Virus record (IMG/VR): IMGVR_UViG_3300032249_001118 | Span: 1-31,909 of that record | Reading direction: 5' to 3' (one strand) | DNA length: 31,909 bases | Origin: a virus | Shown: positions 5,103-25,137 of the stretch, piece by piece | Numbering within the stretch: the first letter of the stretch is position 1 | Layout: each line of letters begins with the position of its first letter | Translations under genes and position numbers: made by a program | Notes under the pieces: generated by a model | Database searches by the model: none | What the model saw: the letters and a program-made list of their open reading frames with translations, nothing else | Told to the model about the DNA's origin: nothing

Positions 5103-7631
5103 TTACGCCCTCGCTAGCGTGATGTCTTTACCGATCAAAAGCGTTACATCTTCAACCCCGCATTTAACCAACGCAATTGGGTTGGTGAAGGTGGCCCGCT
5201 CGAACGGATCTTCCAGCGTTGCACCGCCGTAGATGTTCGTGTTGGTTACGGTGCAGCCAGCGGCATTTCCGGACAGCGAAAAGATCGCTCCGGTATAGAC
5301 GTTCAGGGTAGTGATCGTTCCAGAGCCGCGGGCCTCACAAGATCCGCCATCGACATTGAGCGTCGTGATCGTGCTGCTCGTATCGGTGATCAGTGTTCCG
5401 GCACGCTGAGTTACGGTGGTAGCTCCCGAGTTCAAAAGCAGTCGACCGCCATGCTTGTTCACGGTGGTTAACGTCGCTCCGGTAATTCGGACCTGGGAAT
5501 CGTCCTCGACGCTGGTCACATAACCGATCGTGGTTGTAGCGACCACCGGTGCATCGCCCGGTTCTTCGGTTCCGATGCCAACGTTGCCCTTGAGGATTCG
5601 CACCACATTGGAAGCGTTGGTTCCGGTAATCGTCAGAGCTTCGGTGTCGTCCTCGCTCGTTCCGGTGTTGAGTACAAGTACGGTCGATGCCACGGCTTCG
5701 AGATTGAACTTGAGCCGCGAAGAACCGATGCCATTACCTTGCCCAATTGTGAGCGCAGTAATTCCAGACTTCCATCGACGAGGGCGATACTCGTAGTACA
5801 GGCCGTTGTATCGCGGGAGGCCAATTCGACCCAGATAGCTCGCTTCGACCTGAACCACGGCAAGCGTAACCCCGGTCAGGAACTCGAGATTGTAAAGGCA
5901 ATCAACCGATGAATCGCGGAAGATTACCGTATCGCCTGCGACCGGTGCAGCGGCGGTTGTTGGTGCCGATGGGTTGTACCAGTTGTTAGCCTGCGATGCA
6001 TCGTTGGGTCCGGTGGCATTGGTCGTTGTTGTCGCGTTCAAGGTTTGTGTCGATGCCGCCGTGAGGCTTGATCCGTCGCCGGTCATAAGCGGCTGATTTG
6101 CCGCCGCCAGCGTTCCCTTGAATTCAACAAACCAAGGACCGCCGGGGTTACCGGTGGTGATCGCCTCGCTGACGCCAATGTTTGACAACGCTTCCAATGC
6201 GGTTTGAAGCGTCGCCGCCGATGCGTTGTAGGCTACACCGCTCGTGGTTTGCCCGGAGTAAGTGAGCGTAAAGGTTCCGCCCGTTGGGCTACCTTGAATT
6301 GCCACGCGTTGGATTTCGTTTTGAGCGACCACCGCCTCTTGAACGGTAACGACATTGATAAACGGATAACCGCCGGTGATCGTAACCGCCATCTTGGAGA
6401 TGTCGCCTTCTGCCGCCGTAAAGGTTACCTTGACCAACGAGCCCGTATAAACATCGGTTGCGGTAACTGTCGTAATACCGGATAGAGCATCAAGTGCTGT
6501 CTTGATGTCTGCCGCGAGAGCAGTCGTGATACTTCCGGAAGTCTCTCCATCGATCGTGAGAGTGTAAGAAGTGAATCCGCCCAAGAACTGAATGTACTGG
6601 ATCTCTTGCGGAACGCTACCTTCGGTCGCGGTATAAACACCGCTGCCATAGGTGATCGTTCCTGCGTTGTCTTGGGTATCAATCGTGATCGTATCCGGTT
6701 CCCACGTCGCCGAAATGAAAGTGATTTCCCAGGTCGGTGTATTACCGTCGAGATAGTAGCTTGTATCAACCCAGATCCCGATCGAGAGCATTGCTGCCGC
6801 GATTTCCGCGACCGTCGCATTGGACGAAACAAACGGCATGAGCTTTGTTTCGCCAGTGGTCATCAGCATTCGCAGCCGCCAGCCATCAGTCGAGGTGGTA
6901 TCGGTTTTGGTGATCGTCCAACGAAACGCTCCGCCGCCTTGGCTGCCCTGAACCACTCGAATGATGTCCGAAGCACTGCCGGTCAAGCTCGACGTATTGG
7001 CGATCATACGGGCGACCTGCGTCGAAGCGAACGCCTGCTTGAACTCCACATCGTAATAGTCGCCAGCGGTTCCGGTAACGGTCACATCGCCGACCGCGAT
7101 ATTCGAAAGGGCTTCGAGAGCCGAAGTGATCGTTGCGGTCGATGCGTTGTAGGCGAAGCTCGATGTTGTATTTCCTTCGAACGTCAAGTTCAGCGTACCG
7201 CCCGCACCGGCAGGAATCTTGATTCGCTGAATTTCGTTCTTTGCGGCTTTAGCCTCTTGTACCGTAGTGATCAAAAGTGTCATCGCACCGTCAGCAACCG
7301 ACGCTGAAACAGTGAATGGCTTTCCATCGGTCGGGCCAGTGATTCGAAGGAAGGTCGTGTTGCCATTAGAATCGGTTCCCGCGCTGGCGGATACCTCGGC
7401 CCATTCAGGTTCATCGTTGTTGTATTGTCCGATCGCTGAGACAAACGCGGAAACGATCGCAGCAACGCAACTTGGTTGGTCGGCGGAATTGAGCGACTGC
7501 GATGCGGTTACGGTGATGTCTTTGCGGTTAATCGTGAGCGTAAAAGTATCGCCCGGTTCGATGTTGGCCGGTGTGACCGATGTTACTTGCGGAACAGCCT
7601 TTGCCGCTCCTCGCCAGATTTGAGTTGCCAT
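5103..7631 (-). CDS. Repeat-containing tail protein with beta-sandwich repeats and beta-helix-like C-terminus (842 aa)
   Basis: Residues about 18-530 contain several diverged copies of one ~90-100 residue beta-rich unit. The linker TVQEA(K/V)xA(K/Q)NEIQR occurs at about 123 and again at 429. After each come GGT(L/F)xLT(F/Y)xGxTTS, AYNASxAT and ALEALSNI(A/G)V, at about 145-180 and 452-487. More diverged copies lie at about 230-343 and 343-430 (EIQYIQFLGGFTSYTLTIDG, ALDALSGITTV). From about 560 the sequence becomes Thr/Gly/Val-rich with regular short turns (TLNVDGGS, TLNVYTGA), as in right-handed beta-helix fibre domains. It lies between the Dit-like and hub-like genes, so it is probably a tail-tip protein or side fibre. 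The repeats suggest an extended rod with C-terminal binding domain; this is inference. Confidence 0.65.
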   Translation of the reverse strand: MATQIWRGAAKAVPQVTSVTPANIEPGDTFTLTINRKDITVTASQSLNSADQPSCVAAIVSAFVSAIGQYNNDEPEWAEVSASAGTDSNGNTTFLRITGPTDGKPFTVSASVADGAMTLLITTVQEAKAAKNEIQRIKIPAGAGGTLNLTFEGNTTSSFAYNASTATITSALEALSNIAVGDVTVTGTAGDYYDVEFKQAFASTQVARMIANTSSLTGSASDIIRVVQGSQGGGAFRWTITKTDTTSTDGWRLRMLMTTGETKLMPFVSSNATVAEIAAAMLSIGIWVDTSYYLDGNTPTWEITFISATWEPDTITIDTQDNAGTITYGSGVYTATEGSVPQEIQYIQFLGGFTSYTLTIDGETSGSITTALAADIKTALDALSGITTVTATDVYTGSLVKVTFTAAEGDISKMAVTITGGYPFINVVTVQEAVVAQNEIQRVAIQGSPTGGTFTLTYSGQTTSGVAYNASAATLQTALEALSNIGVSEAITTGNPGGPWFVEFKGTLAAANQPLMTGDGSSLTAASTQTLNATTTTNATGPNDASQANNWYNPSAPTTAAAPVAGDTVIFRDSSVDCLYNLEFLTGVTLAVVQVEASYLGRIGLPRYNGLYYEYRPRRWKSGITALTIGQGNGIGSSRLKFNLEAVASTVLVLNTGTSEDDTEALTITGTNASNVVRILKGNVGIGTEEPGDAPVVATTTIGYVTSVEDDSQVRITGATLTTVNKHGGRLLLNSGATTVTQRAGTLITDTSSTITTLNVDGGSCEARGSGTITTLNVYTGAIFSLSGNAAGCTVTNTNIYGGATLEDPFERATFTNPIALVKCGVEDVTLLIGKDITLARA

Positions 7632-8369: not shown

Positions 8370-10151
8370 TTATCGACCTCCTGACGATTGAATGCGGGCT
8401 TCGGAATTGCGAGCGTTTGCGCGAGCGTTGTCGCGGATCTGGCCTTCGAATCGCTGCTGGAAGGTGGCGATTAGTTGCTTGTCGCGCCGATCGAGAGCTT
8501 CGTTGAGCGAAGCGACCGCTTGGTTGATAAGCGTCGTGTCGTCGCGCTGAACTTCGACAAGCAGTTTCCTTTCGTCTTGGAGACGAACCTCGATTTGTTT
8601 TCGTTGTCGCTCGGATGATCCAAGCGCGGCCTGCTCTTCGGCTCCGAAAAACTGATCAAAGCCAGCGGCATTGGCGTCTTGAATATCTCCGAAGCGAGCC
8701 ATTTCGTTTGTGCTCGACAAGCCAACGCCACGCAGCTTAGCGCGTTCGCTGCGAGTAAGCGATGCCGAGCCTTCTGCGTCGGCCTTGGTCTTGATCGCAA
8801 TGAGTTCCTGTTGCTCGGCTTTGGAAAGCTGGCCGAAGCGTTCCTTCGCAGTAAGCAACGAATTCTGCTCTGCACCGATCCGCTGCTTAACGAGGTCTAA
8901 TTCCTTCTCGGATGACTGAACGCGTTCTTGTGCGTCTTTCTTACGCTCGTCTGCGATCTGTCGTCGGATAGTTAGTTGCTCGCCCAAAGCAGATGTTTCG
9001 AGTTGTCCTAATCGTGCAATGCGTTCTGAAAACGCCTGCTGCTCGATGTCGTTCCGGGCGACCTCGCTGGATTGTGCCGCGATCTCCTCGGCAATCATCC
9101 GGCGCTTTTCGAGAATGCTGTTCAGCTTTTCGGCGGAAGTTGAAGCCGATCCGATGCGATCGTTTGCACCACCAACACGAGCGCCGAAGATATCGTCGGC
9201 CATTCCAACGCGGGCTGTCGTCATCCCGCGAACGGATTCTTCCATGTCGTACTGCGTATTAAATCGACCTTGAGCCCTTCCTAGATTGTTGCGCGATACT
9301 CGCTCGCGGGCTGTGTCTGATATGATCCCCCAGTTGATTCCGGCAAGGCTGTCGTTGACAGAATCGGAAGTGAAACTGTTGAAGTAATTGCTGTACCCTC
9401 GTGCGTCTGATGCGATCCCGATCGCGGTTCCGCCGATCGCTAATCCTACACCAAGAGGTGAAGCGAAACGCCCAAGGCCTGCTAGGCCGCCTGCTCCGCC
9501 TACAGACGACGCGCCGCCCGACGCGGCCCTCGCTGCACCGAGCCTAGCCTCGGCACCGATCTCCGCGTTGATTAACGCGATGTTGCGTGAGCGAGCCGCC
9601 TGTTCTGCGGCTGCGGTTGCAACCACGATCGCCCGATAGCCCTCAACCGCTTTGCTAACCGCTTGCCACGTTTTGACACCGCCGACAACCAGATCAAACG
9701 TACCTTGAACAACGACGAGCCCCTTGAGCAGCTTCTCGGTATTCTCCTCGCCGATCAAACCAAGCGCAGCAAACCCGCGACCAAAGCGGGCAACGCTTTC
9801 AGTGCCCTCAAAGAACGCCGATTTGATCGCTTCTTTCCCGCGTACTTGCTGGGCGGTGTAAGCCTCGTAGGCCTTCGCAAGGTCGTTGATCTTGCGCTCT
9901 TCGTCCTTCATGTATTGGACGCGCATCCGCCAGATCTCTTTGGCGTTTTGCTCCGCATCGCGGCGGCGGCGCTGCTCTTCGCGGGCGGTCGCTTCGGTCT
10001 TTTTACGTTCCGCCTCTTCGACCGTTTGTACTCGCTCCTTTGCGGCCTGCTTTTCCGCTGCAACAACAGCCTTACCAAACGCCTGGGCCTGCGCACCGTT
10101 GGCGCTGTCCTGGAGAATCTTAAGGCGATAGGTTACGGTTCGTTCGGCCAT
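8370..10151 (-). CDS. Tail tape measure protein (593 aa)
   Basis: The protein has long charged helical stretches rich in Ala, Glu, Lys, Arg and Gln (residues about 25-105 and 340-490), typical of tape measure coiled coils. A hydrophobic Gly/Ala region (about 225-255, SPLGVGLAIGGTAIGIAS) lies between them; such segments are thought to enter the host membrane on DNA ejection. At 593 residues, the family rule of about 0.15 nm per residue would give a fairly short tail of roughly 90 nm. The ATG overlaps the stop of the frameshift extension (TAATG at 10153-10149), so it is coupled to the chaperone pair, as in lambda-like phages. No lysozyme or peptidase domain was noticed in it. Confidence 0.85.
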   Translation of the reverse strand: MAERTVTYRLKILQDSANGAQAQAFGKAVVAAEKQAAKERVQTVEEAERKKTEATAREEQRRRRDAEQNAKEIWRMRVQYMKDEERKINDLAKAYEAYTAQQVRGKEAIKSAFFEGTESVARFGRGFAALGLIGEENTEKLLKGLVVVQGTFDLVVGGVKTWQAVSKAVEGYRAIVVATAAAEQAARSRNIALINAEIGAEARLGAARAASGGASSVGGAGGLAGLGRFASPLGVGLAIGGTAIGIASDARGYSNYFNSFTSDSVNDSLAGINWGIISDTARERVSRNNLGRAQGRFNTQYDMEESVRGMTTARVGMADDIFGARVGGANDRIGSASTSAEKLNSILEKRRMIAEEIAAQSSEVARNDIEQQAFSERIARLGQLETSALGEQLTIRRQIADERKKDAQERVQSSEKELDLVKQRIGAEQNSLLTAKERFGQLSKAEQQELIAIKTKADAEGSASLTRSERAKLRGVGLSSTNEMARFGDIQDANAAGFDQFFGAEEQAALGSSERQRKQIEVRLQDERKLLVEVQRDDTTLINQAVASLNEALDRRDKQLIATFQQRFEGQIRDNARANARNSEARIQSSGGR

Positions 10152-10561
10152 TAGTGTTTCAGTCGCTGGAGGACGCTCAGGAGAACTTCGTTTTGGGCGG
10201 CGTGCTGCTCCGCTCGATCATGGCGACGCAGCAGTGAATCGATAATGCTCAAGTGCTTTTGGAGTAATCCGTCGTCGGCCTCCTCGGGGTTTAGTGCTCG
10301 GCCAAACGTTCCTCTGGATCGCATGTACAGCCGAAAGGTTTTGACGTTGGGTAACGTCAATTTCAACTGCTCGGCCCGCTCGGGTGATTGCTTTGGACAT
10401 TGGTTGCAAGGCGGCGGTTGCTTTTCGGTTCGCTCTTGCGGCTTACCTCCTCGCATGCAAGGCTTGCACGTTTTGATGTCGTACACATAGCGTTTGCAAT
10501 CGTTGCAATCGAGGGCTGCGTGCTGCGGGTGCTCCAGCAACAACGACAGCCCGTCAATTAG
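10151..10561 (-). CDS. T-extension of the tail assembly chaperone, made by -1 frameshift; zinc-ribbon-like
   Basis: This frame has no good start of its own (only a TTG at 10543 without Shine-Dalgarno). It is open upstream to the slippery site at 10561-10567, where a -1 shift joins it to the upstream chaperone gene. The extension adds 136 residues beginning LIDGLSLLLEHPQ. It contains CNDC and CKPC, ten residues apart (C-x2-C-x10-C-x2-C), then CNQCPK, so it likely binds zinc. The rest is helical (LKLTLPNVKTFRLYMRSRG, LLQKHLSIIDSLLRRHDRA). By analogy with lambda gpGT, the long form would bind the tail tube protein and the tape measure during assembly. Zinc-ribbon T domains are not part of the lambda version. 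The fusion would be about 281 residues with the TTG start at 10995. Confidence 0.75.
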   Translation of the reverse strand, partial: LIDGLSLLLEHPQHAALDCNDCKRYVYDIKTCKPCMRGGKPQERTEKQPPPCNQCPKQSPERAEQLKLTLPNVKTFRLYMRSRGTFGRALNPEEADDGLLQKHLSIIDSLLRRHDRAEQHAAQNEVLLSVLQRLKH

Positions 10562-10567
10562 TTTTTT
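10513..10567 (-). promoter_or_regulatory. -1 programmed ribosomal frameshift signal (slippery A AAA AAC plus stem-loop)
   Basis: On the - strand the heptamer A AAA AAC (10567-10561) is in the correct zero frame (GAA AAA AAC TAA). The zero-frame stop TAA follows at once. After 8 bases comes GGGCTG (10552-10547), which can pair with CAGCCC (10518-10513). Inside that loop TGCTG can pair with CAGCA. Slippery site, spacing and structure are as expected for -1 frameshifting in tail chaperone genes, and the -1 frame stays open to the tape measure start. Confidence 0.82.
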
Positions 10568-10995
10568 TCTGCTGCGGTCTCCCTTGCCAATCCGGGCAAC
10601 TGGCCCGCCACTTCAGCCTCAAGATCCTTGATGTAATCGCTCGCCTCTTCCGGCGTGGCGGTTTCCTCGATGTCCGAAGGTTCAAGGCCTGCGATCACGC
10701 GATAGAGCCGATGCAAGAGCTTGTAAGGAAGTCTTCGCACCGATTCGAACGCGATCTCGACAGGCTTTTCACTCGAGTCGATTTCGCTCCACGAGACAAG
10801 CTGCTTCGTAACAGCGCTAGCAACCAGATGTAATCCGGTTGCGGCGCTCTTGGCCTTCTCGCTGGACTCCTGGATCGCTTCGACCTGCTCTGCCAAAAGC
10901 GGTCGATAGCTGCCGCTCAAACCTTCGTGGATGCCCTCCATCGGTGCGATGAAAAACGTGCGGGTGTAACCGTCGCGGATAATGTTGCGAGTCAA
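10558..10995 (-). CDS. Tail assembly chaperone, short form (gpG analogue, 145 aa)
   Basis: The start chosen is TTG at 10995, since CGGAGG lies six bases upstream and this keeps the gene clear of the tail tube stop. A GTG at 11037 is the longer option and would overlap that gene. The product is mainly helical and acidic (LAEQVEAIQESSEKAKSA, SDIEETATPEEASDYIKDLE), as in other tail chaperones. It lies between the tail tube and tape measure genes, where G/GT pairs are found. The last codons GAA AAA AAC TAA form the slippery site described above. The short form should be the abundant one. It would coat the tape measure and help the tube protein polymerise; it is not part of the virion in known cases. 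Confidence 0.78.
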   Translation of the reverse strand: MTRNIIRDGYTRTFFIAPMEGIHEGLSGSYRPLLAEQVEAIQESSEKAKSAATGLHLVASAVTKQLVSWSEIDSSEKPVEIAFESVRRLPYKLLHRLYRVIAGLEPSDIEETATPEEASDYIKDLEAEVAGQLPGLARETAAEKN

Positions 10996-11015
10996 AACAG
11001 CCTCCGAAATCAAAA

Positions 11016-11879
11016 CTAAACCTTGGTGAACTTGCACTCCGAGTTGGTTCCGTTATGGAACGACTGGTAAGCAAGCGGGAGCTTCAATTCATCCCGCCCA
11101 GGGATATCGACGCCCACCGCGGGAGCCTTTAGGTTTCCAAATGCGATCGTGTAGGTCGTGGTTCCATCTGTGATTGCCAGCGAACCGGCATAGCCAGTTA
11201 CAGCGACATCGTAAAGCGCGTTGGAGTCACCGAACATCAAAGAGGTTTCGAGGGTTACGATTCGGTCTTTGGGAACGATCGCGGTACGGGTCAACGAGTT
11301 GAGAAAACGATCTCCATCGAGCATGTTGTCGATGGTAAGTCGAAATCGTTCTGGTTGATAGGCAACGCTATTGAGCGTTAGGGTGATCCCAGAGAACACA
11401 AAGAAGTTATCCGTAGGGATGGACAAGGTTGGAAACGTACCGGAGTTGCCTTCGGTCTCGGTTTGGCCGACAAGAGACAAGGTCCAGACTAGCGGCTGTC
11501 CTGGTGATCCCTCGATAACGCAACGGTTCACATAGCATCCAGCATAGGTATAAACCTTTTGAACCTTGTCGATGCAGACAAAACGACCAGTGAGCGCATT
11601 GGCTACGTCAGTCACTCCGCCGGATGTGGTCCCGCCCAAGATCCAAGGCAAAAGCAAATCGATCTCAGTAACGCTTGGGTTCATCACGATGTCGCCAGAA
11701 ATGTCTTGGCGAACCTCGCGAGCGCGATAACTGAACCGCGATCGCGATCCTCGAACGCCCTCGCCGTAAGCAAACGTTTCTTGCTTTTTCAGTGTCGAGG
11801 ACAAGAACTCGAACCGGGCGGTAACCGGATCAGCGGTATGGATACCAAGTTGAGCGGCATAGCCTTGTACGGGAGCCAT
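11016..11879 (-). CDS. Major tail tube protein (287 aa)
   Basis: This beta-rich, soluble 287-residue protein lies directly upstream of the chaperone pair, which is the standard position of the siphophage tail tube gene. The sequence pattern fits the family: an N-terminal QLGIHTADPVTARFEFLSS, a loop region, SGDIVMNPSVTEIDLLLPWILGG, and in the second half FSGITLTLNSVAYQPERFRLTIDN and the NSLTRTAIVPKDRIVTLE strand that often closes the tube domain. TDGTTTYTIAFGNLKAP near the end may be an added beta-domain. Hexamers would stack into the tail tube around the tape measure. The assignment is by position and pattern, not by a named motif. Confidence 0.72.
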   Translation of the reverse strand: MAPVQGYAAQLGIHTADPVTARFEFLSSTLKKQETFAYGEGVRGSRSRFSYRAREVRQDISGDIVMNPSVTEIDLLLPWILGGTTSGGVTDVANALTGRFVCIDKVQKVYTYAGCYVNRCVIEGSPGQPLVWTLSLVGQTETEGNSGTFPTLSIPTDNFFVFSGITLTLNSVAYQPERFRLTIDNMLDGDRFLNSLTRTAIVPKDRIVTLETSLMFGDSNALYDVAVTGYAGSLAITDGTTTYTIAFGNLKAPAVGVDIPGRDELKLPLAYQSFHNGTNSECKFTKV

Positions 11880-18829: not shown

Positions 18830-19692
18830 GGTATCACTCCGATCAAGCAAAACCCATCGCCGCCCTTGCCACCCGCGCCGCCCGTCAACCCGGACCCGCC
18901 ACCACCGCCGCCAGAACCGTACGCGCCATCGCCGCCACGCCCACCGGTTAGACCGAAGTTCGCTCCGCCGCCGGTTCCACCTGTGCCGAAGAACCAACGC
19001 GGGAGCCACAATCCGTTCGGTCCGTTGCCACCGCCAACCGATCCGCCCGTAAGCGTCTCGTGCAAGTTCAACGCCGCATTTTGACCGCCGCCCGCAAAGT
19101 TTGTCGGGACGGAGTTCTGACCGCCACCACCCGCACCACCTCGCGTATGGCGGTTGTTTGCCGGAGCATTCGACGACGTTCCCGATGCACCAAGCCCGCC
19201 CGCTACTCCGCTGCCGTTAACGAATCCTCGCTGCATACAATGCAGATTGAATATCTGCAAATTACCAATCGCCGCCGCACCGCCCGCCGTTCCTGCTGAC
19301 GTACTTCCACCGCCACCGCCACCGCCGCCCGTTGGTATCTGAATGATGTTGACCGTCCCGCCGGATCGGTCGAGATATATTCTAGCGGACCCACCTACTG
19401 CACCAGCGAGCGTCGCCGCACCACCCGCACCACCTGCACCAGGCGAGATAATGAACGAAGGCGGAAGCATAGTCGCTACGAACAAGCTGACATACGTGCC
19501 GCCCGGACCACCGCCGCCGCCACCGCCTCGCGATACCGTGTTATCTCCTGACGCACCACCACCGCCACCGCCGCCCGGACCCTGCAACGTGATCCAAACA
19601 TAGGACGCCCATTTCGGCACGTTGTAGGCTACCGTCACATTGCCCGCGATGAACTGGAAGTTGCGAAGTTGCTTGCGATTTATTGTGTGCAT
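18826..19692 (-). CDS. Glycine-rich tail adhesin-like protein, copy 3 of 3 (288 aa)
   Basis: ATG at 19692 overlaps the previous TAA (TAATG); a frame start at 19710 would overlap more and is less likely. The first ~50 residues form a beta-rich head ending in VPKWASYVWITLQGP. It is followed by blocks of 5-8 consecutive glycines (from about 47) separated by short variable loops. The end is SGGGGGGSGLTGGAGGKGGDGFCLIGVIP. The layout matches phage Gly_rich tail proteins and, in spirit, the polyglycine-II sandwich of T-even gp38 adhesins such as phage S16. The loops between glycine runs would bind the receptor. The opposite strand carries Pro-rich open frames that are only shadows of the GGX codons. 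Confidence 0.75.
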   Translation of the reverse strand: MHTINRKQLRNFQFIAGNVTVAYNVPKWASYVWITLQGPGGGGGGGASGDNTVSRGGGGGGGPGGTYVSLFVATMLPPSFIISPGAGGAGGAATLAGAVGGSARIYLDRSGGTVNIIQIPTGGGGGGGGSTSAGTAGGAAAIGNLQIFNLHCMQRGFVNGSGVAGGLGASGTSSNAPANNRHTRGGAGGGGQNSVPTNFAGGGQNAALNLHETLTGGSVGGGNGPNGLWLPRWFFGTGGTGGGANFGLTGGRGGDGAYGSGGGGGGSGLTGGAGGKGGDGFCLIGVIP

Positions 19693-20555
19693 TACGACAC
19701 CCACACCCAAAGCGCACCATCGCCGCCCTTACCGCCGGAGCCGCCTGGGTTGCCAGATCCACCGCCGCCGCCACCGCAACCTAATGCACCCTCGCCACCA
19801 CTGACGCCAGTGCCCGCACGAACCGACGCGCCGCCCATCCCCGGATGATAAAAATTCCACATCGGAAAGTAAAAGCCACCGGGAACGTTGACGCCGTTCG
19901 GGAAGAACAATCCGGAGTTGCCAGCCGACTCGACGCCGCCACTGAAGTCTGCCGCCGCACCTTGACCACCGCCACCAGAACCCGGAGCGAAGTGCGGGTT
20001 GCTGTTGTTGTGGCCGGTGTTGCTTCCTGCCGATCCAAGCCCGCCAGCCGATCCCGCAGCACCGGTCATAAAGCGATGGCATAGCGTTTGACTGAACAAC
20101 GAAAACTCGGCTATTGCTGCCGGTGCACCACCCGTCGTACCCGCTAGCGTTGACGTCCCTGCGTTGCCCGCTGGACCGCCCGCCGCCGCCACGAGGTCTG
20201 TCGTGTTGCTCGTGCCGATAGGACGAAAGAACACTCGGCACGTAGCACCCGCCGATCCGTTGCCCGCTGGCGGGCCACCGTTGCCGCCCGCTCCCGGAGT
20301 GACGTTCATCGACGAAGGAAACATCCGAGCCAAGCCGCATATCACAAACGAGTTCGCTGTCGATCCACCTGCACCACCACCACGATTCGTCGCCGCGTCC
20401 ACGCCGGAGAATCCGCCGCCGCCACCTCCTGCTCCGCCGATGCCGACGAGCCACACCATCTCGGCCCATTTCGGAATATGGAACGAGTACGTGCCCGCGC
20501 CGCCGGTATAGAGCCCGATGAAACGTAGCTTGCGTTGGTTCATCGCGGTCAGCAT
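19692..20555 (-). CDS. Glycine-rich tail adhesin-like protein, copy 2 of 3 (287 aa)
   Basis: Paralogue of its neighbours. ATG at 20555 overlaps the preceding TAA by one base; an in-frame ATG at 20543 (MNQRK) is an alternative. The head domain has IPKWAEMVWLVGIGG at about residues 27-41, in the same place as VPKWA/VPRWA of the other copies. Glycine blocks and variable loops follow (NTGHNNSNPHFAPGSGGGG; FPNGVNVPGGFYFP). The C-terminus departs from the other copies: it reads GCGGGGGGSGNPGGSGGKGG and ends DGALWVWVS instead of an IGVI end. The middle contains more aromatic and His residues than copy 3. A receptor-binding role is inferred. Confidence 0.75.
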   Translation of the reverse strand: MLTAMNQRKLRFIGLYTGGAGTYSFHIPKWAEMVWLVGIGGAGGGGGGFSGVDAATNRGGGAGGSTANSFVICGLARMFPSSMNVTPGAGGNGGPPAGNGSAGATCRVFFRPIGTSNTTDLVAAAGGPAGNAGTSTLAGTTGGAPAAIAEFSLFSQTLCHRFMTGAAGSAGGLGSAGSNTGHNNSNPHFAPGSGGGGQGAAADFSGGVESAGNSGLFFPNGVNVPGGFYFPMWNFYHPGMGGASVRAGTGVSGGEGALGCGGGGGGSGNPGGSGGKGGDGALWVWVS

Positions 20556-21445
20556 TAAATGACTCCGATGAAAACGTAACCGTCGCCGCCAGTGCCGCCA
20601 CGACCACCGGTTAAACCTGATCCACCGCCACCGCCGCCGCTACCCGGTCCTCCGTTGCCGCCACGCCCGCCCGTCGCACCGTGGTTTGATCCGCCACCCG
20701 TTCCGCCCATCGCTATCTTGTAGCGTGCATCCCAAAACCCATCAGCACCATCGCCGCCGCCCGCAAGGCCTCCCGGTATGTTTACCGCGCTATCCTTGAA
20801 CGTAGTGTTCAAAGAAAACGCATTCGCCCCGCCAGCGAAGTTTGCAGGCGTCAGCGAGTGACCACCGCCGCCAGCCCCGCCGAACGCATGTCTCGCGTTG
20901 CCAGATCCGGAGGCGTTAGCACCGACCGCACCCGAGCCTCCAGCATGACCGCCGCCGATATTGTTCGTTCGACCAAGCGAGAACGGACCAAGCAACTCCA
21001 TGAAGGTCGGAACCGTTGGCGCGCCCGCCGCACCGCCAGTACCGGTTCCAGGATTGCCGCCGTTGATCGTCATCAGCAACACCGTGCCCGCCGTTAGTGT
21101 TCGATACGAGATCGACAACGCGCCGCCAGTGCCCCCCGTAACACCGTTGCCCGCACTTCCACCTGCGCCGCCTGCACCACCAACGCCCGGAATGATGTTG
21201 AGCGAAGTTGGAAGTAGGATCGCCGGAACCATAACCGACATAAAACTGCCGGGACCGCCACCGCCGCCGCCGAATCGGTTTGCCGTGGTATCACCACCAA
21301 CACCACCGCCGCCACCGCCGCCGGGAGATACCGCCGTGATAAAGACGAGCTTCGCCCACCTAGGAACGCGGAACGTGCCGTTACCCGCTCCACCCCAGAA
21401 CTCAACGTACTTGCGGAATTGCTTGTCGCTGATGAATGACTGCAT
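20555..21445 (-). CDS. Glycine-rich tail adhesin-like protein, copy 1 of 3 (296 aa)
   Basis: First of the three in transcription order. The head domain runs from DKQFRKYVEFWGGAGNGTF to VPRWAKLVFITAVSP, followed by GGGGGGG blocks. Conserved framing (FGGGGGGPGSFMSVMVPAILLPTSLNIIPGVGGAGGAGG in pieces) is shared with copy 3. The end SGGGGGGSGLTGGRGGTGGDG and YVFIGVI closely matches copy 3, so copies 1 and 3 are nearest relatives. The stop of the 141-residue gene lies 3 bases upstream. As with the others, an elongated glycine-helix sandwich with exposed loops is the likely structure. Confidence 0.75.
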   Translation of the reverse strand: MQSFISDKQFRKYVEFWGGAGNGTFRVPRWAKLVFITAVSPGGGGGGGVGGDTTANRFGGGGGGPGSFMSVMVPAILLPTSLNIIPGVGGAGGAGGSAGNGVTGGTGGALSISYRTLTAGTVLLMTINGGNPGTGTGGAAGAPTVPTFMELLGPFSLGRTNNIGGGHAGGSGAVGANASGSGNARHAFGGAGGGGHSLTPANFAGGANAFSLNTTFKDSAVNIPGGLAGGGDGADGFWDARYKIAMGGTGGGSNHGATGGRGGNGGPGSGGGGGGSGLTGGRGGTGGDGYVFIGVI

Positions 21446-24318: not shown

Positions 24319-25137
24319 TCAATCCTTTGGTGTGGGTGGTGAAGATTCGCCATCAGTCGATGAACGAATCAAGTAGAAGAAGTGATACTTTATCGTCGTG
24401 ACAAAGTGTTTTTTCCAAGTCAAGAAGCATCGTCCTTCGTTGCCCCATCGCGGAGCCCAGGAGTTGAACATGTCGAACGCGAATTCGTTTCCGATGATCG
24501 TAACGTCATCCACGCCAACAGCGTGATTGCCGACGCCTGTATTACTGGTCCCGGCAATACCGTTTGAATCAAGAGTACTCCACACGTTATTAGCGTGAAC
24601 AGCAACAACTCCGACAAAGCCTGAAGCCAAACCGCTCGCCAATTCAATTTCTGTCTCCGCGCGATAACATTCCCAGGCCTTGTAATGCCGCATCGTGTCC
24701 TTGGCTACCTGCGGAATCTGTGACCAAAGATAGGTCGGCTTCTGTACTAAGGCTTCTGGCGGAACTCCGTTTTCACATATCGCCGACATGCCCTCTTCGA
24801 GGCCGCTGCCGTTGTCTCTGCCGCCGCTGATTTGTGCGTACAGCCCAAAGCCCGAAAGCATCACACGCGGCAAGCCACGAAGCACGCGGGCACGAGCGAG
24901 AGCATACGCACCCGCAAAGCCATTGCAGGCTCCCATGTTTCCCTGATTGCCGATCCAGTCGACACCAAATCGCTTTCGGCCTGCCTTGCGTTTCGGATCG
25001 CTGATGATGTCTTTGATTTGCTCGGGGCTCAACATCGGCCCAGCGTCGGAATAGGCCTTGAAGGTGCTTGTGCGGACCGAAGGCAATTGCAAACCGGTTC
25101 CATACTGCACGCCATCGATTTCGATTATCTGATTCAT
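24319..25137 (-). CDS. Papain-like (C1 family) cysteine peptidase, candidate endolysin (272 aa)
   Basis: The catalytic centre of the C1 (papain) family is plain: Gln65 and Cys71 in NQGNMGACNGFAGAYAL, His205 in VGNHAVGVDDV and Asn225 in FNSWAPRWGNEGRCFLTW, all in the right order and spacing. GGRDNGSGLEEGMSAICENGV (about 105-125) fits the usual middle segment. There is no signal peptide and no cell-wall-binding domain. The N-terminal 50 residues may be a short propeptide. It has ATGA overlap with the membrane-anchored gene upstream and is in the midst of small membrane genes, so an endolysin acting on peptide cross-links after holin release is a sensible guess. Papain-type lysins are unusual; a role in virion or host protein processing remains possible. 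Confidence 0.82.
   Translation of the reverse strand: MNQIIEIDGVQYGTGLQLPSVRTSTFKAYSDAGPMLSPEQIKDIISDPKRKAGRKRFGVDWIGNQGNMGACNGFAGAYALARARVLRGLPRVMLSGFGLYAQISGGRDNGSGLEEGMSAICENGVPPEALVQKPTYLWSQIPQVAKDTMRHYKAWECYRAETEIELASGLASGFVGVVAVHANNVWSTLDSNGIAGTSNTGVGNHAVGVDDVTIIGNEFAFDMFNSWAPRWGNEGRCFLTWKKHFVTTIKYHFFYLIRSSTDGESSPPTPKD

Follow-up and report, generated by a model that had tools for sequence, protein, structure and literature searches.

Locus organization

How is a 136-codon frame expressed that follows a tail gene in a different register and has no good start of its own? This question is raised by the tail module of a 31,909-base virus record, the whole of which is the window analyzed here. 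A sequence-only reading had answered it with a programmed -1 frameshift that joins a tail chaperone (G) to the downstream frame (T). The tail genes lie on the minus strand, with the following features.

11016..11879, minus strand: major tail tube protein, upstream neighbour of G (Pfam PF18906 Phage_tube_2, E 1.3e-23)
11001..11005, minus strand: GGAGG ribosome-binding site of the G frame, 5 nt ahead of TTG 10995 (read in the sequence)
10558..10995, minus strand: G, predicted tail assembly chaperone, zero frame, TTG to TAA, 145 aa (relatives in 35 clusters; structural model; match to 2ob9)
10561..10567, minus strand: slippery heptamer A_AAA_AAC in register with the zero frame (read in the sequence; conserved in relatives)
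10558..10560, minus strand: zero-frame stop TAA adjoining the heptamer (read in the sequence; enriched among clusters)
10507..10558, minus strand: probable stimulatory hairpin 3' of the slip site, with core GGGCTG/CAGCCC and an inner stem (folding energy and shuffles)
10151..10561, minus strand: T, predicted -1 extension of the chaperone, 136 codons then TAA, with a CxxC...CxxC pattern (homologues; structural model)
8370..10151, minus strand: probable tape measure protein, 593 aa, its ATG overlapping the T stop (position; partial similarity in relatives)

A direct reading of the minus strand shows GAA AAA AAC TAA at the end of the zero frame, which confirms the claim of an in-register A_AAA_AAC (10567-10561) with the stop directly behind it (TAA, 10560-10558). 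The -1 frame is likewise open for 136 codons (10561-10154) up to the tape measure start, as had been claimed, and its TAA (10153-10151) overlaps the start codon (ATG, 10151) of the following gene. TTG 10995, together with the GGAGG, is a credible start of G; counted from it, the predicted fusion has 145 + 136 = 281 residues, the size given in the earlier reading. The T frame of the window contains two TTG codons, at T codons 7 and 8 (10543 and 10540), which have no ribosome-binding site and both fall within the hairpin. The 593-aa gene downstream of T has no match of its own in Pfam or PHROGs and is similar to the corresponding gene in relatives, and G and T are thus placed between the PF18906 tube protein and a candidate tape measure.

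Three further observations concern other minus-strand genes of the window. A predicted 272-residue protein (24319-25137) resembles, by eye, a papain-like cysteine peptidase. Two neighbouring glycine-rich proteins (19692-21445) are apparent tandem paralogues, perhaps fibre or appendage proteins. In an 842-residue protein (5106-7631), repeated segments match PHROGs families of tail sheath and major tail proteins, likely through shared repeat domains.

Family search and sampling

Searches of Pfam, PHROGs and NCBIfam gave no convincing match for G, T or the members of their alignments, and INPHARED phages and the sequences of solved structures gave no match at all. Used as single-protein queries, G, T and the tube protein retrieved nothing from viral contigs or INPHARED; an Rfam search also returned nothing. 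The entry point to the family was the capsid protein, which as a query gave 45 viral loci. Eleven distinct loci found through the capsid carry the tube-G-T module, with T in the -1 frame in each. Alignments A1 and A3, taken in full, proved too divergent to serve as search profiles and were dropped. A six-member T alignment used as a query gave 8 genome loci and 80 viral loci. The family set contains 103 loci with T, which form 36 clusters at 70% T identity; the clusters share descent, so the p-values given below overstate their independence. The protein family is new and unannotated, while the frameshift mechanism itself is already known.

Downstream of T, some relatives differ in gene content from the window. 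An extra frame of ~110 residues, absent from the window, lies between T and the tape measure candidate in three loci (L009:16147-16482, L019:8321-8650 and L039:12895-13248). In L018:19250-19626, the place expected for the tape measure holds a frame that by eye looks like a family-25 glycosyltransferase.

Conservation of the slippery heptamer

A canonical heptamer stands in register where T homology begins in all 103 loci, and this identical placement in related loci excludes its chance occurrence. Altogether 86 loci have A_AAA_AAC, 15 have G_GGA_AAC and two have A_AAA_AAA, numbers that correspond to 29, six and one of the 36 clusters, respectively. As a further test set, the T profile was run against 392 Planctomycetota genomes, of which 17 matched, a few of them weakly. 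The heptamer is in place in 13 of 13 intact full-length strong matches (12 A_AAA_AAC and one G_GGA_AAC), and the stop follows it directly in 12 of the 13; this draw is nearly but not wholly independent, as L139 equals the genome copy L054 and L141 is close to L134. Two strong T matches lack the heptamer (L149 and L154); both are pieces of T within chimeric or broken frames, which we read as decayed prophages. The weak matches L151-L153 (18-33 bits) were left out of the counts. In L149, from a planctomycete genome, a 510-residue frame (685-2214, reverse complement) joins a capsid-like N-terminus, part of T and a tail-like C-terminus, and is probably the deletion remnant of a prophage.

These counts bear on two ways in which the A run could mislead. 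A single extra A would join the frames, and a sequencing or assembly error could in principle have split one continuous gene; yet the same split recurs in 103 loci from many metagenomes and genomes, some with sites that have no A run, and this conservation refutes the error for the family, leaving it a negligible probability at this locus. Alternatively, RNA polymerase slippage on the seven consecutive A of the window might add an A to some transcripts, enough to reach the T frame and to produce the same fusion with no ribosomal slip. We consider this very improbable, since six of the 36 clusters have G_GGA_AAC in place, a site with no long homopolymer in which tandem tRNA re-pairing is nevertheless kept.

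Expression of the T frame

Judged from its homologues, the -1 frame of T codes for protein, with similarity beginning at its first codon. In five of the 36 clusters, no ATG, GTG or TTG occurs in the T frame between the preceding stop and the first conserved cysteine; in the remaining clusters, T-frame starts are scattered and mostly have no ribosome-binding site. Taken with the window, where no T-frame start has a ribosome-binding site, the five startless clusters bear out the claim that the downstream frame has no good start of its own. T could also be a separate gene, started within the overlap by re-initiation or by translational coupling at the G stop, and the TTG codons at 10543 and 10540 and the nearby G stop would suit such an arrangement. 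We regard it as extremely improbable given that the five startless clusters have no common start and the others have scattered ones, that a near-invariant Leu (T codon 1) sits right at the heptamer, and that re-initiation needs no invariant in-register heptamer.

RNA structure downstream of the slip site

Folding of the region 3' of the heptamer reproduced the hairpin that had been proposed by eye. GGGCTG (10552-10547), which begins 8 nt past the heptamer, forms the core stem with CAGCCC (10518-10513), and this stem encloses a second one; the minimum free energy is -23.9 kcal/mol for 45 nt and -32.6 kcal/mol for 81 nt (z -3.2, 0 of 200 shuffles as good). The stem of the window can be extended outward (AATTGA/TCGATT), in which case the spacer is 0-2 nt. 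A shuffle test on the 60 nt after the heptamer, in which protein and codon content were held constant, gave z -5.5 for the window hairpin (0 of 200 synonymous-codon shuffles). Across the family, 33 of the 36 clusters fold more strongly than their synonymous shuffles (mean z -1.9, versus -0.01 in control windows of the same genes; Wilcoxon p 2e-9, for clusters related by descent). L004, the closest relative of the window, had no unusual folding in the shuffle test.

The coding sequence of T carries a corresponding signature. GGG is enriched at Gly4 of T (21/34 versus 73/283, p 4e-5) and fits the 5' arm of a stem, often GGGGTG with CACCCC, about 7 nt after the heptamer. One consensus stem for all clusters was rejected, as a fixed 11-bp model paired 66% of cells, while column shuffles reached 61% and slid positions of the model 40-56%. 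The hairpin itself is genuine, with a register that varies from cluster to cluster, and we propose no single consensus structure. The hairpin probably stimulates frameshifting, and a conserved hairpin downstream suits ribosomal rather than transcriptional slippage.

The G and T proteins

The structural model of G has a pLDDT of 88.9 (the modelled sequence had one extra N-terminal codon). Its top solved match in Foldseek, and the only relevant one, is the HK97 tail assembly chaperone 2ob9, with probability 0.96, TM 0.35-0.44 and an E-value of 0.033 that is not significant. T homologues share 21-53% identity across the 36 clusters. C19, C22 and C52 are invariant and a fourth cysteine occurs in all, so that a CxxC and a second cysteine pair of variable spacing are present in 36 of 36 cluster representatives. 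The T model (pLDDT 96.5) had no fold match in PDB or BFVD. T appears to be a compact domain with four conserved cysteines, a candidate for a zinc-ribbon-like domain with putative zinc binding. Profiles of G and T could allow annotators to find and name tail chaperones in these phages.

Predicted G/GT frameshift

Combining these results, we predict with high confidence that a G/GT tail-assembly-chaperone -1 frameshift joins G and T. The prediction is supported by synteny (PF18906 tube, G, T, candidate tape measure), by the invariant heptamer in 36 divergent clusters, by the interchange of A_AAA_AAC and G_GGA_AAC, by a hairpin beyond shuffles, by clusters in which T has no possible start, and by the match of the G model to the HK97 chaperone. 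The recognition of a G/GT pair from the letters of a single locus has therefore held up.

We infer that slippage occurs, and likewise its rate and the binding partners of G and T, along the following lines. Most ribosomes would translate G (145 aa) and terminate at its TAA. A smaller share, delayed by the hairpin that lies a few nucleotides further on, would slip by -1 on A_AAA_AAC, where both tRNAs can re-pair (Lys on AAA and Asn on AAA), and would read on through the -1 frame to give the 281-residue GT. By analogy with lambda, for which the G/GT mechanism and a 30:1 ratio are reviewed in PMC5009743, G may coat the tape measure and the T part may recruit the tail tube protein.

Heptamer type and hosts

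A_AAA_AAC had been called an ideal heptamer. It is canonical, in register and conserved, but it is not ideal in E. coli, where A_AAA_AAG is far more shift-prone (PMC5009743). A_AAA_AAC is among the best heptamers for mammalian ribosomes, and about half of bacteria have a single tRNA-Lys that serves both codons (PMC5009743). No AAG-type slip site occurs in the family. A tRNA-Lys(CUU) candidate was found by pattern search in 12 of 13 host genomes and confirmed by ARAGORN in 10 genomes. Such a tRNA would re-pair poorly on AAA, and AAG sites should therefore work less well in these hosts. Independently of this, T codon 1 encodes a near-invariant Leu, which would itself favour C at that heptamer position. 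Low queuosine is not the likely cause of AAC sites, as the TGT gene is present in 13 of 13 hosts tested. This is a bacterial phage family that uses the heptamers best in mammals, which fits hosts with tRNA-Lys(CUU).

Genome matches of the T alignment occurred in Schlesneria, Gimesia and Gemmataceae. Among 398 Pseudomonadota, the sole match was the seed MAG labelled Emcibacter, possibly a binning error. Since the genome copies are in Planctomycetota apart from this MAG, the host of the window is likely a planctomycete, judging by where related sequences occur.

Stop codon adjoining the heptamer

The sequence-only reading had singled out the adjacent stop as a feature worth testing that may pace the ribosome, and the family shows that it is enriched. 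The zero-frame stop follows the heptamer directly in 23 of 36 clusters (64%); in the other 13, G ends 1-13 codons later. Almost every T frame opens with a Leu CTN codon, and other CTN codons in T frames are therefore the appropriate baseline; 53 of 246 of these produce a zero-frame stop (21.5%; binomial p 5e-8, for related clusters). AAC/AAA-type sites only, together with a stop at zero distance, are departures from E. coli practice, the latter being shared with Rous sarcoma virus and luteoviruses.

The stop might merely end G and have no effect on frameshifting, a reading compatible with the frameshift itself to which we assign slightly less than an even chance. G has to end somewhere, 13 of 36 clusters lack the adjacent stop, and the adjacent stop of Rous sarcoma virus was reported to be changeable without effect (PMC4373837). 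This reading is opposed by the excess of 64% over 21.5%, by PEMV, in which changing a near-adjacent stop to a sense codon cut frameshifting by 72% in vitro (PMC4737148), and by bacterial RF2, which was a competitor of slippage at the HIV heptamer once a stop had been introduced behind it (PMC4373837). Other systems provide evidence both for release factor competition and for stimulation (PMC4373837, PMC4737148).

We raise tentatively, as a rather doubtful possibility, that this phage family uses the zero-distance stop behind its AAC-type heptamer as a component of the frameshift signal. If so, release factor and slippage would compete with the stop in the A site, the G:GT ratio would be set by host termination and the hairpin, and the site would be a bacterial counterpart of the luteovirus and umbravirus layout, tuned to hosts whose separate tRNA-Lys(CUU) makes them poor at E. 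coli-type AAG heptamers. The family, made up of viruses and prophages mostly of Planctomycetota, offers more than 100 natural versions of one frameshift signal with the adjacent stop present or absent, so that the influence of such a stop on -1 slippage, long a matter of dispute, becomes directly testable in bacteria.

Comparison with known systems

The locus resembles the G/GT pair of phage lambda and conserved frameshifting in tail chaperones (Xu, Hendrix and Duda 2004; reviewed in PMC5009743) in the order tube - G - T - tape measure, in a -1 heptamer near the end of G, in a T without its own start and in a presumed minor long product. Unlike lambda-type systems, this family has no sequence relation to any family searched, AAC-type heptamers, a stop adjoining the heptamer in most clusters and a T with four conserved cysteines. 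The mean distance from heptamer to stop in PRFect is 26 nt for SEA-PHAGES and 36 nt for the Xu set (PMC10885494). HK97 gp13 (PDB 2ob9) is the best solved match of the G model, although no sequence similarity to G was detected and the TM-score is modest; HK97-type chaperones frameshift, with 6-7% measured (PMC3711429). In the haloarchaeal viruses HCTV-1 and HCTV-2, the g-t frameshift takes place on G_GGA_AAC and A_AAA_AAC (PMC5009743), but their hosts are archaeal and HCTV-5 has the AAG type that is absent here. A stop lying directly at the -1 slip site or 3 nt away, together with a downstream structure, also occurs in Rous sarcoma virus, barley yellow dwarf virus and umbraviruses (PMC4373837, PMC4737148); in contrast, these are eukaryotic RNA viruses or retroviruses with no homology to the family, and their product is a polymerase rather than a tail chaperone. 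Set against these systems, the mechanism at this locus is ordinary and its recognition secure; the family is unannotated, and the site layout is distinctive and new.
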